The notes under the pieces were generated by a model, which saw only the letters and a program-made list of their open reading frames with translations, ran no database searches and was not told the origin of the DNA. From Terasakiella sp. SH-1 (GTDB lineage: Bacteria > Pseudomonadota > Alphaproteobacteria > Rhodospirillales > Terasakiellaceae), in the NCBI RefSeq assembly GCF_004564135.1, contig NZ_CP038255.1:2901501-2965500 (forward strand): a stretch of 64,000 nt of DNA, given 5' to 3'. The translations under genes were made by a program, and so were the position numbers. The stretch's first letter is position 1, and the number at the start of each line of letters is the position of its first letter. Below are positions 18,147 to 60,122 of the stretch, piece by piece.

Positions 18147-19970
18147 ATGTGTGGCATTGTTGGTTTTATCGGTCAAAAAGAAGCAGCCCCCTTACTGGTG
18201 GAAGGGCTGAAACGTCTGGAATATCGCGGTTATGATTCTGCAGGCATCGCCACCTTGCCCAATGGTCATATAGAACGCCGCCGCGCTGAAGGCAAAATCG
18301 TCAATCTTGAAAAAGTCCTTGGTGAACAGCCCGTCACAGGTACCATCGGCATTGGCCATACCCGCTGGGCCACCCATGGCATTCCCAATAAAACCAATGC
18401 CCACCCCCATGCCACAGGCCGTGTTGCCGTGGTACATAACGGCATTATTGAAAATTTTCAGGAACTGCGTGCCGAGCTGATTGAAAAAGGATTTTCCTTT
18501 TATTCAGAAACCGATAGCGAAGTTGTTCCGACCCTAATTACCAGCTACCTCAACGATGGCCTTTCCCCTGTTGAAGCCGTAAAAACCACGCTCAAACGAC
18601 TGGAAGGTGCGTTTGCCTTGGGGATTATTTTTGCCGGCGAAGATAATCTTTTAATCGGGGCACGTCGCGGTAGCCCCTTGGCTGTTGGCTTTGGCGAAGG
18701 TGAAATGTATCTCGGCTCCGATGCCATGGCTCTGGCTCCACTTACCAAGAAAATCGCCTATCTGGATGAGGGCGACTGGGTGGTTCTCGGTCGTGACAAC
18801 GTAACCTTTTATGATGAAAATGATACCGAAGTCAGCCGCGACATTCGTGAAACCGCCATGTCTGGAGCACTGATTGGCAAGGGTGAACATCGTCATTACA
18901 TGCTCAAGGAAATTTTCGAGCAGCCTCAGGTCATTGGCGACACACTGGCAGGTTTCTTCAACCCCACCAACCAGACTATTTCCATGCCGGATTTCCCGTT
19001 TGAACTGGCCCATATCTCGCGCATTACCATCGTTGCCTGCGGCACGTCCTTTTATGCTGGACTGGTTGCCAAATATTGGATCGAACAATATGCCCGCATC
19101 GGGGTAGAAATTGATGTGGCCTCAGAATTTCGTTACCGTGAAGCCCCCATGCCTGAAGGTGGCCTGGCCTTATTTATTTCCCAATCCGGGGAAACCGCCG
19201 ATACTCTGGCTGCCCTTCGTTATGCCAAATCACAAGACCAACATATTCTTTCCATTGTCAATGTGCCCGAAAGTTCCATGGAACGGGAGTCTCATGCGGT
19301 TTTACGCACCCACGCCGGGCCTGAAATCGGCGTGGCCTCAACCAAAGCCTTCACAACACAACTAACCGTATTGGCCTGCCTTGCCATTTCACTGGCCAAG
19401 GCCAAGGGTACGCTTCAGGCAGATACAGAAGCCAGCCTGTGTAAAGCCATTGCCGAAGTCCCCGCCCGTGTCACCGAAATTCTCACCCATGACAAAGCCT
19501 TGCGCGATATCGCCCAAAATGTCGCAGAAGCTCGCGATGTGCTTTATCTGGGACGTGGCGCAGCCTTTCCTATTGCTATGGAAGGGGCATTGAAACTGAA
19601 GGAAATTTCCTATATTCATGCCGAAGGCTATGCCGCAGGAGAAATGAAACACGGCCCGATCGCCCTGATTGACGAAAGCGTCCCCGTGATCGTTTTGGCC
19701 CCCAGTGACAGCAATTTTGAAAAAACAGCCTCCAACACCCAAGAAGTTGTTGCCCGTGGGGGACGCGTCATCTTTATGGCCGACCAAACAGGCTGCTCAA
19801 AAATGGCCGACCATTCCATGGCCTCAGTCCCCATGCCTGTCGTTCATTCCTTTGTCGCCCCAATCCTCTATTCCATCCCGGTCCAACTCCTAGCCTATCA
19901 CGTCGCCGTCCACAAAGGCACAGATGTGGATCAACCGAGGAATCTAGCGAAATCGGTGACTGTTGAATGA
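18147..19970 (+). CDS. glmS: Glucosamine-fructose-6-phosphate aminotransferase
   Basis: Converts fructose-6-phosphate and glutamine to glucosamine-6-phosphate. N-terminal cysteine nucleophile of the glutaminase domain (MCGIVGFIG), two SIS isomerase domains (VACGTSFYAGL, SQSGETADTLAALR, and GRGAAFPIAMEGALKLKEIS), and the conserved C-terminal tail KGTDVDQPRNLAKSVTVE. The last two codons and the stop (gttgaatga) are also the outer end of a 100-bp inverted repeat of the downstream island, so the 3' end of glmS is a junction. The 3' end of glmS is a known integration hot spot (attTn7), though no Tn7 genes are seen. Confidence 0.97.
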   Translation: MCGIVGFIGQKEAAPLLVEGLKRLEYRGYDSAGIATLPNGHIERRRAEGKIVNLEKVLGEQPVTGTIGIGHTRWATHGIPNKTNAHPHATGRVAVVHNGIIENFQELRAELIEKGFSFYSETDSEVVPTLITSYLNDGLSPVEAVKTTLKRLEGAFALGIIFAGEDNLLIGARRGSPLAVGFGEGEMYLGSDAMALAPLTKKIAYLDEGDWVVLGRDNVTFYDENDTEVSRDIRETAMSGALIGKGEHRHYMLKEIFEQPQVIGDTLAGFFNPTNQTISMPDFPFELAHISRITIVACGTSFYAGLVAKYWIEQYARIGVEIDVASEFRYREAPMPEGGLALFISQSGETADTLAALRYAKSQDQHILSIVNVPESSMERESHAVLRTHAGPEIGVASTKAFTTQLTVLACLAISLAKAKGTLQADTEASLCKAIAEVPARVTEILTHDKALRDIAQNVAEARDVLYLGRGAAFPIAMEGALKLKEISYIHAEGYAAGEMKHGPIALIDESVPVIVLAPSDSNFEKTASNTQEVVARGGRVIFMADQTGCSKMADHSMASVPMPVVHSFVAPILYSIPVQLLAYHVAVHKGTDVDQPRNLAKSVTVE

Positions 19971-20268
19971 TTTGATCGGTGCCGATAGCGTTCTTCAACC
20001 GTAATTCCAAGTTCATCATCGGTGTACAAAGGTACCTTTAACGCAATAGAAACAACGTGTTCCTTGTCTTCGGGAAGGTGCTGAACGTCGATACGTTCAA
20101 CGACCTGTGACAGCCATTTTTGTTTTTTACGTTTGTTGAAGGCGTTTAAATGGTCAAAATCAACCACCAACACGTTGTTTCTATTGCGTTAAAGGTACCT
20201 TTGTACACCGATGATGAACTTGGAATTACGGTTGAAGAACATTATCGGCACCGATCAAATCATTCCAC
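19962..20268. repeat. Large inverted repeat, 100-bp arms, at the glmS end
   Basis: Arms 19962-20061 and 20169-20268 are reverse complements with three mismatches in 100 bp, separated by 107 bp. The outer end of the left arm is the final nine bases of glmS. A third, diverged copy of part of the arm lies at about 25700-25809 (reverse orientation). Differences between copies are mostly at third codon positions of one reading frame, so the repeated unit is protein-coding in origin. Confidence 0.85.
19971..20173 (-). pseudogene. Fragment of a recombinase-like C-terminal region
   Basis: The minus-strand frame reads FDHLNAFNKRKKQKWLSQVV, then ERIDVQHLPEDKEHVVSIAL, then KVPLYTDDELGI. A helix followed by L-x-x-V-V-E-R-I-D-V and a beta strand is the usual C-terminal segment of long serine recombinases. 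It runs into the glmS 3' end without a proper stop of its own and has no N-terminal part here, so it is a fragment. The same peptide recurs at 20169-20268 (plus) and 25700-25809 (minus). Family assignment is tentative. Confidence 0.45.
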
Positions 20269-20695
20269 GGTGGAACATGACGCTACATCGGCATCGTTAA
20301 TGACCCACTTTTCAGATGATGCCACCGTGTCTAAAAACGGCGATTTACACGACAATTTGAATGGCAACATTAATGGTAATTCCAGCATCAAAGTCTGCAT
20401 TAAGTTCGACCTTATAATTCGTTCAACAGCATTCTGGGTTTCAAACTATAGCGAGTATCAGCAGTTTTTATCCAATAAGATTGCAGAGTTCCGTGACGAC
20501 GGCAGAACATTCAAATGGATCGCACGTTGGTTCAACGACAACAATCACCTGACACCACGCGGGAAGACATTCTCGGATCGGCACGTCCACGGCATTCTTA
20601 AAAAACGACAGATCAGGGATGCCCGTTTCTTACGACCGCCCGTGATTAGTATTTCTAATGTTGATTTATTTTACCAACCATACGAACGTGGTTGA
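20150..20695 (+). CDS. Recombinase-associated hypothetical protein with HTH-like C terminus
   Basis: Open frame of 181 codons whose first third is the repeated module (HVVSIALKVPLYTDDELGI) and whose last third reads SEYQQFLSNKIAEFRDDGRT, FKWIARWFNDNNHLTPRGKT, then F, with HVHGILKKRQIRD. The pattern IA-x-x-F/L-N-x2-G/N-x2-T-P-R-G-K and a following helix is the recombinase/helix-turn-helix element found in large serine recombinases. No catalytic serine domain is attached, so it is either the C-terminal remnant of such an enzyme or a stand-alone accessory protein. The start is uncertain: no ribosome-binding site is evident at 20150, and ATG 20300 is an alternative. Confidence 0.5.
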   Translation: MVKINHQHVVSIALKVPLYTDDELGITVEEHYRHRSNHSTVEHDATSASLMTHFSDDATVSKNGDLHDNLNGNINGNSSIKVCIKFDLIIRSTAFWVSNYSEYQQFLSNKIAEFRDDGRTFKWIARWFNDNNHLTPRGKTFSDRHVHGILKKRQIRDARFLRPPVISISNVDLFYQPYERG

Positions 20696-21558: not shown

Positions 21559-22149
21559 TTAAGCGGCTTCGTCAGCAGCCATCTGCTTCTTGATGCGTGA
21601 TACCGTTGCGGGAAATACGTTCGCCATCTTTGCCACAGCGCGAACACCATGACCTTCACGTAACTGCTTCTTCACCCGATTAATCTTCCAATCACCCACA
21701 GATGGTCTGCCGATCTTCTTATCAGTTCTGGCAAGCCCAGCCTTCACGCGCTCACTGATCATGGATTTTTCAAATTCTGAGAATACTCCAAGCAGTTGAA
21801 ATAGCATGCGCCCTGCGATGGTGCTGGTATCCAGCCCTTGCTTATGAAGATAGAGGTCAATACCGCGATCATTGATGTCAGAAAGAAAGCTCACGAGGTC
21901 ATTTAAAGACCGACCGAGGCGGCAGACGCTCCAACTGGCGACGAGATCAAACTTCTTTTGGGCAACACCGATCATCATTTGATCGAAGCCCGGTCGCTCA
22001 CTGCGCCCTTTAGCACCACTGATGCCTTCATCGGCGTAAACGGCAACCACCTCCCAACCTAACCTGCCAGCGACTTCATCAAGGTCACGGCGTTGGTTCT
22101 CGATGGTCTGATCGTCGGTGGATACACGGAGGTATAGGGCGACGCGCAT
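21559..22149 (-). CDS. Serine recombinase (resolvase/invertase family)
   Basis: A complete 196-residue small serine recombinase. The catalytic serine lies in MRVALYLRVSTDDQTIENQR, with later active-site parts in DLVASWSVCRLGRSLNDLV and the E helix GVFSEFEKSMISERVKAGL. The C-terminal helix-turn-helix reads GHGVRAVAKMANVFPATVSR. The usual D-R-L-G-R motif is C-R-L-G-R here, a small change. Start at 22149 is set by CAGGAG eight bases upstream. Likely role: resolution or inversion within the mobile element. Confidence 0.9.
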   Translation of the reverse strand: MRVALYLRVSTDDQTIENQRRDLDEVAGRLGWEVVAVYADEGISGAKGRSERPGFDQMMIGVAQKKFDLVASWSVCRLGRSLNDLVSFLSDINDRGIDLYLHKQGLDTSTIAGRMLFQLLGVFSEFEKSMISERVKAGLARTDKKIGRPSVGDWKINRVKKQLREGHGVRAVAKMANVFPATVSRIKKQMAADEAA

Positions 22150-22537
22150 GGTGATCTCCTGTTTCAATATCAGTGCGTTTTGAAACACCCAAAATCAGGG
22201 AGGTCGCATTGGCAGATAAATGCGATTTTAATGGACCTCGTGATGATGAGGGTTTTGAAACAGGATCATGGTATGCCGGAAAAAAGACCGGAACAAGCCG
22301 GATTCCGGCAGGTTATGGATGAAGAACTTGTCGGGCGGTATGGTCGACTTCGCCTGTCACCCTTCTTGTTCTTCCTTCAAAACAAACACAGAAGAACTAA
22401 CCAGATCAGAAATCCCCCCTTATCTACCCCCTACTAATATAACCTTAGACCACCCCCGATAGGGGGGATTTTACCCGACACAGTTTTTATCCAACCTCGC
22501 CCGATGGAAACGTGGAGGTGTTAGTGGACGAGGGTGT
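22150..22537. other. Gene-poor stretch with a G/C-run hairpin
   Basis: No convincing protein gene; short open frames here have no ribosome-binding sites or recognisable sequence. It contains an inverted repeat at 22409-22472 (aaatccccccttatc against gataggggggattt) with a loop of about 34 bases. The hairpin is not followed by a T run on either strand, so it is not a standard terminator; it could be an element end or a protein-binding site. Confidence 0.4.
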
Positions 22538-23113: not shown

Positions 23114-23321
23114 TTTTAATTCCTACATATACAAGCATTGAATTGACTACTGAACTGTGTTTGACCACTTCCTTTGTATTGATAATTACACCATCTACGG
23201 ATAGTGGAAATAAAACAACAATTAACCACATAAGACGGCACCTATTCAACCTATTAAAATAAAAATGTTCTTTTTTTGTTCTTAACTTCTACATCCAGTT
23301 AGGCTACATTCTTCATCAGTC

Positions 23322-23408
23322 AACGGGATAAGTGTGACCGAAAGGTTCCTTGTCCCGTTTTCTATTTTGAGCAAGCCGTTCTCCGCATCTGTGGAGGGCG
23401 GCTTTTTT
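23322..23408 (+). ncRNA. Candidate structured RNA with GAAA tetraloop hairpin and terminator
   Basis: Two hairpins in a row on the plus strand. The first (23323-23359) pairs acgggataag with cttgtcccgt over ten pairs including one G-U, and carries an inner gacc-gaaa-ggtt stem capped by a GNRA-type GAAA loop. Twelve to fourteen bases later comes a terminator hairpin (23373-23408). Together they look like a small RNA or a leader for the gene at 23433. No known riboswitch was recognised. Confidence 0.5.
23373..23408 (+). terminator. Rho-independent terminator
   Basis: aagccgttctccgcatctgt pairs back with ggagggcggctt: stem AGCCG-tt-CTCC / GGAG-gg-CGGCT, followed by TTTTTT. It lies 25 bases before the start codon of the next gene, so it either ends the RNA above or attenuates that gene. 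Confidence 0.75.
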
Positions 23409-23432
23409 CATTTTTAACAACAGGAGTTTTCC

Positions 23433-24239
23433 ATGAGTGGAAATTCATTTTGGGGCAGCCTGACATCGGGTCTGTCCAATTTCGCTAATGGCGTTGGTGA
23501 TTTATTCAACGTTGGCAGCACCGTCAGCACATCAAGCAACATCAAACCTGATGACGTTCTCAAAACCAAAACCGCGCTTAATGCCGTGGGAAGTTACGAT
23601 GTGCCAGACTTCGGCATCACGGAAATTCCCGATACGGGAATGATTGATGGACTAAAGAACTTTCAAGCCAACAATGGATTGAAGGTTGATGGCGTAATGA
23701 AGCCGGGCGGTCCCACGGAAAATGCGTTGGGTCAGACTTTGGCAAATCAGGGCATTTCAACCACGGACATACTGGAAAAGGTGAAGACACCGCCCGTCAC
23801 ACCAATGCCAGATATGCCAAAGCCAGTTTCACCGCCCCAAACATCATGGTCGGCATCTGCACCGCTTAGTGAAGTTCCAAAGCCTTCGAGACCAAAACTG
23901 CCAAAGAACGACCCGATGACAGGTTTGGAAGACCCGTTGGCATCTGCCCCGAAAGGGAAAATGCCAACGAAAAAACAATGGGACGAAGTCGCAAAAATGC
24001 AGCAACAGAAGGCGAAGACAGCGATCATCCCGCAGGGCGACACAGTGGATCAGCGTATTCGTTCGATGATGTCAGACAAACGTTATGGCGACAAACAAGA
24101 CACTCGCCTTACCAAATTGGTTGGACGGAAGATGGGGAAGAGTATGAAATTGATGACGGTGTTCGTATTGAAATGTATCCGTCTCCCATATACCGCCCTG
24201 CTCCCAATTGGATGCACAAGCTCAGTGATGATGTGTTGA
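23433..24239 (+). pseudogene. Peptidoglycan-binding-domain protein, 3' end replaced
   Basis: Starts MSGNSFWGSLTSGLSNFANG after CAGGAG. A peptidoglycan-binding type 1 repeat reads DTGMIDGLKNFQANNGLKVD followed by GVMKPGGPTENAL, then a long proline-rich linker (KTPPVTPMPDMPKPVSPPQT), the layout of some phage and island proteins with a lysin-like or virion role. Past about residue 225 (near 24110) the frame loses sense (KLVGRKMGKSMKLMTVFVLK) while another frame begins to encode a DUF4145 domain. So the gene is fused out of frame to a different gene; its own 3' end is lost. Confidence 0.65.
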
Positions 24240-56835: not shown

Positions 56836-58395
56836 TCAAATAGAGCCAACATCTTCCGGCTTGCCTTTTTCACGTTTAACCAACAACTTGTTAACCGCAT
56901 TTAAATAGGCATTTACAGAGGCCACCATCGTATCGGTATGTGCCCCCCGGCCATTAACTGTTTTGCCTTTTTCTTCCAGACGTACCGTCACTTCGGCTTG
57001 GGCATCTGTACCTTGGGTTACAGCATGCACCTGATACAGCTCCAAATGAGCATCTGGCAGGGGCACAATTTCCTTAATCGCCTTAAAGGCTGCATCCACC
57101 GGGCCGTCGCCCTCTGAAATGGTCTTGCGCTCTTCCCCATCAATTTCGATGGACAGGGCTGCAATCTGGCTTTTCACATGCGTGCCACATGTCACCTGAA
57201 AATGCGTCAGTTTCACACGTTCATTCACCCGCATGACTTCATCATCAACCAGAGCAATAATATCGTCATCAAAGACATCTTTTTTCTGATCGGCCAAATC
57301 CTTGAAACGTTTAAACGCATCATTCAAGGCATTATCGCCCAGCTCATAGCCCAAGGCAGACAGCTTGTCTTTAAAAGCATGACGACCAGAATGTTTACCC
57401 AAAACGATCTTGTTGGCATTATCCAGCCCAACGCTTTCAGGCGTCATGATCTCATATGTGCCTGCATGTTTTAACATGCCATCCTGATGGATACCGGACT
57501 CATGGGCAAAGGCGTTTTTACCAACAATCGCCTTGTTGGGTTGAACGCTAAAGCCTGTAATGCCAGACACCATGCGTGATGCACGCGTAATCAGCTCTGT
57601 CTTGATACCTGTTGTATAAGGCATGTAGTCATTACGCGTACGCAAGCCCATCACGACCTCTTCCAAAGCCGCATTACCGGCGCGTTCGCCCAAGCCATTG
57701 ATGGTACATTCCACCTGACGCGCCCCTGCCTGAACCGCTGACAAGGAGTTGGCAACCGCCAAGCCCAAATCATTATGACAGTGGGTTGAAATAATCGCCT
57801 GATCAATGTTGGGCACACGGTTCATCAACATGTCGATCATCTTGTAATATTCTTCCGGTACAGTGTAGCCTACCGTATCGGGAATATTAATGGTACGAGC
57901 GCCTGCCGCAATGGCTGTTTCCACACAACGGCACAGAAAATCAGCCTCTGTACGGGTGCCGTCTTCGGCAGACCATTCCACATCCTCCACCAAGGAGCGA
58001 GCAAAGGTTACAGATTTTTTGATTTTTTCTACAACCGCATCAGGTTCCATCTGCAATTTATATTTCATATGCAGGGGCGAGGTGGAAATAAAGGTATGGA
58101 TACGGTGTTTCGGCGCATGTTTAATCGCATCAAAACAACGCTGGATGTCGCCTTCTGAAGCCCGTGACAGGCCACAGATCGAAGAACTTTCAGCCCGTTT
58201 GGCAATTTCGCTAACAGATTCAAAATCACCTTCTGAGGCAATTGGGAAACCAGCTTCAATAACATCCACACCCATTTCTTCCAGGGTTTCGGCAATACGC
58301 AACTTTTCTTCCAAATTCATGGAAGCGCCGGGGCTTTGTTCGCCATCACGCAAAGTGGTGTCAAAAATAATTACGCGGTTTGAATCGGTTGTCAT
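56836..58395 (-). CDS. leuA: 2-isopropylmalate synthase
   Basis: First enzyme of leucine synthesis: condenses acetyl-CoA with 2-oxoisovalerate. The HMGL-like barrel has VIIFDTTLRDGEQSPGASMN and the metal-binding ISTHCHNDLGLAVANSLSAV, with GERAGNAALEEVVMGL; the C-terminal leucine-binding LeuA regulatory domain is present (FKAIKEIVPLPDAHLELYQV, GAHTDTMVASVNAYLNAVNK). 519 residues from ATG 58395, chosen since AGGA lies eight bases upstream. A leucine-rich leader ORF and alternative hairpins precede it. Confidence 0.96.
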   Translation of the reverse strand: MTTDSNRVIIFDTTLRDGEQSPGASMNLEEKLRIAETLEEMGVDVIEAGFPIASEGDFESVSEIAKRAESSSICGLSRASEGDIQRCFDAIKHAPKHRIHTFISTSPLHMKYKLQMEPDAVVEKIKKSVTFARSLVEDVEWSAEDGTRTEADFLCRCVETAIAAGARTINIPDTVGYTVPEEYYKMIDMLMNRVPNIDQAIISTHCHNDLGLAVANSLSAVQAGARQVECTINGLGERAGNAALEEVVMGLRTRNDYMPYTTGIKTELITRASRMVSGITGFSVQPNKAIVGKNAFAHESGIHQDGMLKHAGTYEIMTPESVGLDNANKIVLGKHSGRHAFKDKLSALGYELGDNALNDAFKRFKDLADQKKDVFDDDIIALVDDEVMRVNERVKLTHFQVTCGTHVKSQIAALSIEIDGEERKTISEGDGPVDAAFKAIKEIVPLPDAHLELYQVHAVTQGTDAQAEVTVRLEEKGKTVNGRGAHTDTMVASVNAYLNAVNKLLVKREKGKPEDVGSI

Positions 58396-58465
58396 CAGTC
58401 TCATCCTGAAAAATATATTTGCACATTAAGTAATGAAACGGCCTGGAAAATGCAACAAGCCTTGT

Positions 58466-58530
58466 CCCCTGAACGTTACTTCAGGTCACTTTTTCTTAAC
58501 ATTGGACGTGAAGTAAGCTTCGCTCAGGGG
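58466..58530 (-). promoter_or_regulatory. leuA leader with two mutually exclusive hairpins
   Basis: On the leuA transcript, CCCCTGA (58530-58524) and TTACTTCA (58516-58509) can pair with TCAGGGG (58472-58466) and TGAAGTAA (58483-58476), forming a long interrupted stem. The distal half can instead fold alone as CCTGAA/TTCAGG (58485-58468). The first arm includes the stop codon of the leader ORF, so a translating ribosome would decide which fold forms. This is the logic of ribosome-mediated attenuation; a strong U run for termination was not found. Confidence 0.5.
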
Positions 58531-58646
58531 CGAGTAAGTCGTGCAAGAAGGAGAGCAAGTCGTTTTTGACCGTAAACACGCATAGCAACCACCCCGCTTA
58601 AAGAAGCGGCGATCAAAGTTGCAGCGCTGATTTCAATCATGGTCAT
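58524..58646 (-). CDS. Leucine-rich leader peptide upstream of leuA
   Basis: 40 codons, MTMIEISAATLIAASLSGVV, AMRVYGQKRLALLLARLTRP. The last dozen codons include five leucines (ctt, ctc, ctt, ctt, ctt) right before a stop that lies in an attenuator-like stem, 128 bases upstream of leuA. Such an ORF fits a leucine-sensing leader peptide. The hydrophobic middle could instead make it a tiny single-helix membrane protein. The ribosome-binding site is weak. Confidence 0.5.
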   Translation of the reverse strand: MTMIEISAATLIAASLSGVVAMRVYGQKRLALLLARLTRP

Positions 58647-58799
58647 GGCAGACAAGAACCTTGGGAATAATGAATACTCTTTTATAAAAGGGGATTTATT
58701 TCTCAGTGTCAAACAGTTTTTCATCGTATTTTCACAACAAACGGAAAAAATTAAACCTTTTAAAAGTCCGAAAGTATGATATATTCAGACTACATATCA

Positions 58800-58945
58800 T
58801 ACCTAAGGGCCATTATCGCCAGTTTAAATGGCCCTTAAGAGACGTGTTGAAATGTTTGCTCTCCGAAGGCTTCATTGCCAGACAAGCATTTCGATAATGT
58901 CACCCCGAAGCCCCGCATCTTACCCCTTTGCGGGGCTTTTCCTTT
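58800..58945 (+). ncRNA. Candidate small RNA with three hairpins and terminator
   Basis: The gap between leuA leader and ilvC carries, on the plus strand: a perfect 11-pair hairpin (taagggccatt at 58804-58814 with aatggccctta at 58827-58837), a nine-pair stem aaatgtttg/caagcattt (58850-58858 with 58883-58891, one G-U) enclosing a loop with its own small pairing, and a ten-pair terminator (58908-58938). A TATGAT box lies at 58775-58780. No ORF with a ribosome-binding site exists inside. I do not recognise it as 6S, SRP, tmRNA or RNase P RNA. Confidence 0.55.
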
Positions 58946-58946
58946 T
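58908..58946 (+). terminator. Rho-independent terminator
   Basis: aagccccgca and tgcggggctt make a perfect ten-pair stem around a loop of eleven bases, followed by TTccTTTTT. It ends the candidate small RNA and protects the convergent ilvC from read-through. Confidence 0.85.
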
Positions 58947-59075
58947 TCAGCTTTAGACAAAAGGGCTGTATCCCTACCCCATAAACAAAAAGGGAAGCCC
59001 CAATTGGGACTTCCCTTCTGTGCAGTGCGTGCAGACTCCTTAAAACATCAGAGCCACGCATATCTAATCCGAAGA

Positions 59076-60122
<1,047 letters not shown>

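Follow-up and report, generated by a model that had tools for sequence, protein, structure and literature searches.

A candidate small RNA gene of restricted distribution between leuA and ilvC in Terasakiella sp. SH-1

The analysed stretch of Terasakiella sp. SH-1 DNA (64,000 nucleotides, hereafter the window) contains leuA and ilvC, both encoded on the minus strand and separated by a gap (58405-59075) in which no gene was found on the plus strand. This gap harbours a plus-strand element composed of three consecutive stem-loops (SL1 to SL3) and a terminal T-tract, which is divergent from leuA and convergent with ilvC (Table 1). For the comparisons given below we used six Terasakiella genomes (the window genome, G000, and G001-G005, where G003 is T. 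brassicae), as well as 248 relatives that were searched with a covariance model. Separate from the candidate small RNA, the gap also holds a leuA leader peptide (MTMIEISAATLIAASLSGVVAMRVYGQKRLALLLARLTRP; 58524-58646, minus strand, ending in LALLLARLTRP), which is accompanied by attenuator-like stems (58466-58530) and is conserved in other Terasakiella (G001 and G004); leader and stems together probably constitute a leucine attenuator.

Table 1. Features of the leuA-ilvC region, with positions and strands as in the window.
Feature	Position	Strand	Description
leuA	56836-58404	-	
Inverted repeat AAGTATGA-N17-TCATACCT	58772-58804	+	Candidate operator, 33 bp
-10-like TATGAT	58775-58780	+	Inside the inverted repeat; predicted RNA start about 58786-58789
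Proposed small RNA transcript	58787-58947	+	About 160 nt; predicted from the -10-like element and the terminator
SL1	58804-58837	+	TAAGGGCCATT / AATGGCCCTTA, 11 perfect pairs
SL1 loop	58815-58826	+	Inside the conserved TTATCGCCAGT-TTAAA stretch
SL2	58841-58901	+	Middle stem, 24 pairs, many G-U
SL3	58907-58939	+	AAGCCCCGCA / TGCGGGGCTT, 10 perfect pairs and one G-U
SL3 loop	within 58907-58939	+	About AUCUUACCCCUUU, 11 nt
T-tract TTTTCCTTTTT, 3' of SL3	to 58947	+	With SL3, a predicted intrinsic terminator
ilvC	59076-60101	-	

A preliminary description of the locus had pointed to three consecutive stems (one perfect over 11 pairs, another ending in a perfect 10-pair terminator with a T run) in a non-coding gap, on the strand opposite to the neighbouring genes, and had deemed that much structure unlikely to arise by chance. 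We recovered all three stems at 58804-58939, in the orientation described, and the folding statistics agree with its judgement. As plus-strand RNA the element folded at -61.7 kcal/mol, as compared to -33.5 kcal/mol (s.d. 3.7) for dinucleotide shuffles (z = -7.7), and none of the 200 shuffles was as stable. The minus-strand fold was much weaker (z = -3.5), because SL2 owes many of its pairs to G-U and is therefore stable only as plus-strand RNA. Ranked by fold among all 160-nt segments of the 64 kb (3192, both strands, GC-corrected), the element came fifth, which makes it unusual, but not unique, within the window. A generic terminator scan did not pick up SL3, since its 11-nt loop exceeds the limit of that scan (8).

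Elsewhere in the window, the strongest fold of all (z = -8.0) lies on the plus strand at 23318-23418, where a long hairpin is followed by a terminator-like stem with a T-run, just upstream of an open reading frame (23433-24239); this stretch is a candidate for a cis-regulatory element or a second small RNA. At the 3' end of glmS (18147-19970) we observed a 120-nt inverted repeat (19942-20288; arms 90% complementary, 107 nt apart), which resembles the boundary of an element integrated next to this gene; a serine-recombinase-like open reading frame is found nearby (21559-22188).

The inverted repeat at the 5' side of the element is perfect in T. brassicae (AAGTATGA-N17-TCATACTT, with the same 17-bp spacing); in the form common to both species, AAGTATGA-N17-TCATACYT, the repeat has one mismatch in the window and none in T. 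brassicae, and its arms are invariant between the two rather than covarying. The TATGAT inside it is conserved in T. brassicae, lacks a -35 consensus and had no match in the promoter scan; it is a plausible -10 of a putative promoter. A putative DNA-binding regulator seated on the repeat would control transcription, and a repressor is the simplest guess, because a protein bound there would overlap both the -10 and the start. If transcription starts upstream of the repeat, the latter could form a further RNA hairpin. Across the genus, operator-like inverted repeats elsewhere occurred at overall counts near background, and a promoter-motif scan of the genome collection returned 85 matches, among which T. 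brassicae was the sole Terasakiella record.

Control by Fur (in a RyhB-like manner), an idea prompted by a chance-level second model match (G000:C1:88123) upstream of a TRAP transporter gene, was rejected, as the repeat is unlike the E. coli Fur consensus and, by eye, unlike an AT-rich stretch, itself a candidate site, that precedes feoAB in the window genome. The promoter region of this TRAP transporter substrate-binding gene carries two close palindromes (AGAATGAGATATTCATTCT and AACAATAATCATTATTGTC, at G000:C1:88123-88193; L186 1501-1571) in a double operator-like arrangement.

By BLAST, the 186-bp element has one good relative, found in T. brassicae upstream of leuA and on the strand opposite to it, as in the window. 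This homologue folds into three stems (z = -6.1), the last of them a long terminator. When the two gaps were compared, BLAST aligned a 72-nt island (the inverted repeat and SL1, 81% conserved) and the leuA leader, and outside these only a 19-nt piece. All 11 pairs of SL1 are kept in T. brassicae, with five of them changed (one on both sides, four on one side); the loop TTATCGCCAGT is identical and the loop region differs by one inserted A. If SL1 received six substitutions at random, all of its pairs would survive with a probability of 0.001-0.04, depending on transition bias. A middle stem is also present in T. brassicae, in sequence that is unalignable with SL2, and the terminator stem is longer there and encloses a C-rich loop (UACCCCCCCCUCC). 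The aligned part of SL3 keeps 10 of 10 pairs with two two-sided changes, an alignment that is less certain because the unalignable SL2 lies between it and SL1.

An alignment of the gap in relatives had been proposed in the preliminary description as a check on the structure; here it shows the pairing kept in T. brassicae, with SL1 and SL3 together preserving 21 of the 21 compared pairs through three two-sided and five one-sided (G-U type) changes. No two-sided changes appeared in any of the slid structures of a slid-partner control, and in a covariation column shuffle (two sequences only) the score was reached by 63 of 500 shuffles. The covariation is thin because there are only two homologues, and as far as a comparison of their sequences can tell, the conservation of pairing appears good but not overwhelming.

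Within the genus, the element was present in two of the six species (the window species and T. brassicae), with no recognisable homologue in G001, G002, G004 and G005, and the covariance model of the island gave no credible match beyond these two genomes among the 248 relatives. We discarded a model match in G158 (E = 0.09), which by eye had neither the conserved loop nor the palindrome, and two viral contigs (L181 and L182), in which the loop is present without the full stem. In the leuA tree G001 is the sister of the window species; its genome keeps leuA, ilvC and the gap size, and the RNA is absent from it. The position of T. brassicae at the base of the genus in this tree (with modest support) suggests either two or more losses of an ancestral gene or a single transfer, and the ilvC tree does not resolve between loss and transfer.

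We reason that the plus-strand stretch 58787-58947 is probably the gene of an Hfq-aided, trans-acting small regulatory RNA, with a regulated promoter and a genus-restricted distribution. The notion of a new small RNA, already put forward in the preliminary description, gains support from the structured homologue in T. brassicae, in which the pairing, the loop and the promoter-proximal inverted repeat are conserved, and from the want of an Rfam match (see below). Transcription would start at the TATGAT inside the inverted repeat, and the RNA would end at its own intrinsic terminator, formed by SL3 and the T-tract. The transcript would then act in trans by base pairing, presumably helped by Hfq, whose gene is encoded in all six Terasakiella genomes. 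The exposed and invariant SL1 loop, UUAUCGCCAGU, is proposed as the main seed, while the C-rich terminator loop possibly pairs with Shine-Dalgarno-like sequences. Exact complements of the 11-nt loop, sought in G000 and G003, were not located at shared genes. A broader view, namely a Terasakiella small RNA family in which operator and seed loop are invariant and the scaffold (middle stem and terminator) has a fast turnover, with a putative regulator and regulon, is offered here only tentatively, as a possibility that we doubt more than we favour.

That the element is instead a structured stretch devoid of regulatory function (just a strong terminator, with hairpins that are the remains of a mobile element or of a gene since lost) seems unlikely to us. 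Its patchy occurrence within the genus and the strong differences in SL2 and terminator between the two species are in line with such a relic, but the loop is conserved and the stem maintained in a gap that is otherwise mostly unalignable. Moreover, there is no remnant plus-strand gene, and the element is single-copy in its own genome (therefore not a repeat family) and had no match in the plasmid and phage collections.

We attach very little probability to the idea that what is conserved serves mainly as a DNA operator or promoter, the transcript carrying a short peptide or insulating leuA from ilvC. Consistent with it, no piece is better conserved than the inverted repeat, and a 34-codon ATG frame, read by eye, begins at 58853; this frame, however, is without a good ribosome site by eye and its start is absent from the aligned T. 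brassicae sequence, no promising or supported reading frame was found in the element, and the pattern of changes in the SL1 loop and stem fits a constraint on RNA.

The preliminary description had also entertained, from the placement between two such loci, a regulator of branched-chain amino acid genes, and this part found no support. A dedicated small RNA regulator of the adjacent leuA and ilvC, or co-regulation with leuA via a shared divergent promoter region, is highly improbable, even though in each of the two species with the element it points away from leuA. When the pairing of the SL1 loop with the start regions of the 63 window genes was ranked, leuA came 50th and ilvC 59th, leaving position as the single link to amino acid metabolism. 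This position next to ilvC is itself not conserved: ilvC lies about 2 kb from leuA in T. brassicae (2.1 kb off, behind two further genes), 23 kb away in G002 and on another contig in G005. Furthermore, G001 retains both genes and their spacing without the RNA, and leuA already seems to be served by an attenuator of its own, provided by the leader. Present evidence gives no cause to revise how branched-chain amino acid control is viewed. Between leuA and ilvC, T. brassicae and G004 carry a methyltransferase-like gene (L090 390-1376) and a 65-aa gene (L090 1397-1594; by eye YjfB-like), both missing there from the window genome. A cis-acting leader (attenuator or riboswitch) is ruled out, since no plus-strand gene lies downstream of the element and the next gene, ilvC, runs on the opposite strand.

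With both homologues as queries, no Rfam family was reached at the gathering threshold, and relaxed thresholds yielded weak matches only, none common to the two; no family match thus explains the element, a point that the preliminary description had left to be checked. In the literature searched, no paper mentioned both Terasakiella and small RNA. GcvB (RF00022), which is trans-acting, resembles the element in having multiple stems and an amino-acid-related gene adjacent to it; it scored 16 bits on the element, against a gathering score of 42, and was not seen in the homologue. Alphaproteobacterial C-rich-loop small RNAs are built of several stem-loops with exposed, C-rich, anti-Shine-Dalgarno loops. 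The element is like them in its C-rich terminator loop (UACCCC in the window, CCCCCCCUCC in T. brassicae) and unlike them in that its invariant part is the SL1 loop, which is not C-rich, and in the lack of an Rfam match. RusT of Caulobacter crescentus is an Hfq-bound, iron-responsive small RNA controlled by NtrYX, and the conserved hairpin loop of its second stem-loop takes part in target recognition (PMC11005374). Both RusT and the element are alphaproteobacterial and have a conserved hairpin loop, although their lineages differ and the likeness drawn here is one of description. The element is thus a new example of a common kind that matches no Rfam family. If expressed, it would be a narrowly distributed small RNA with an altered scaffold but an unaltered loop and promoter element, and such a case helps to ask which parts of a small RNA are under selection.
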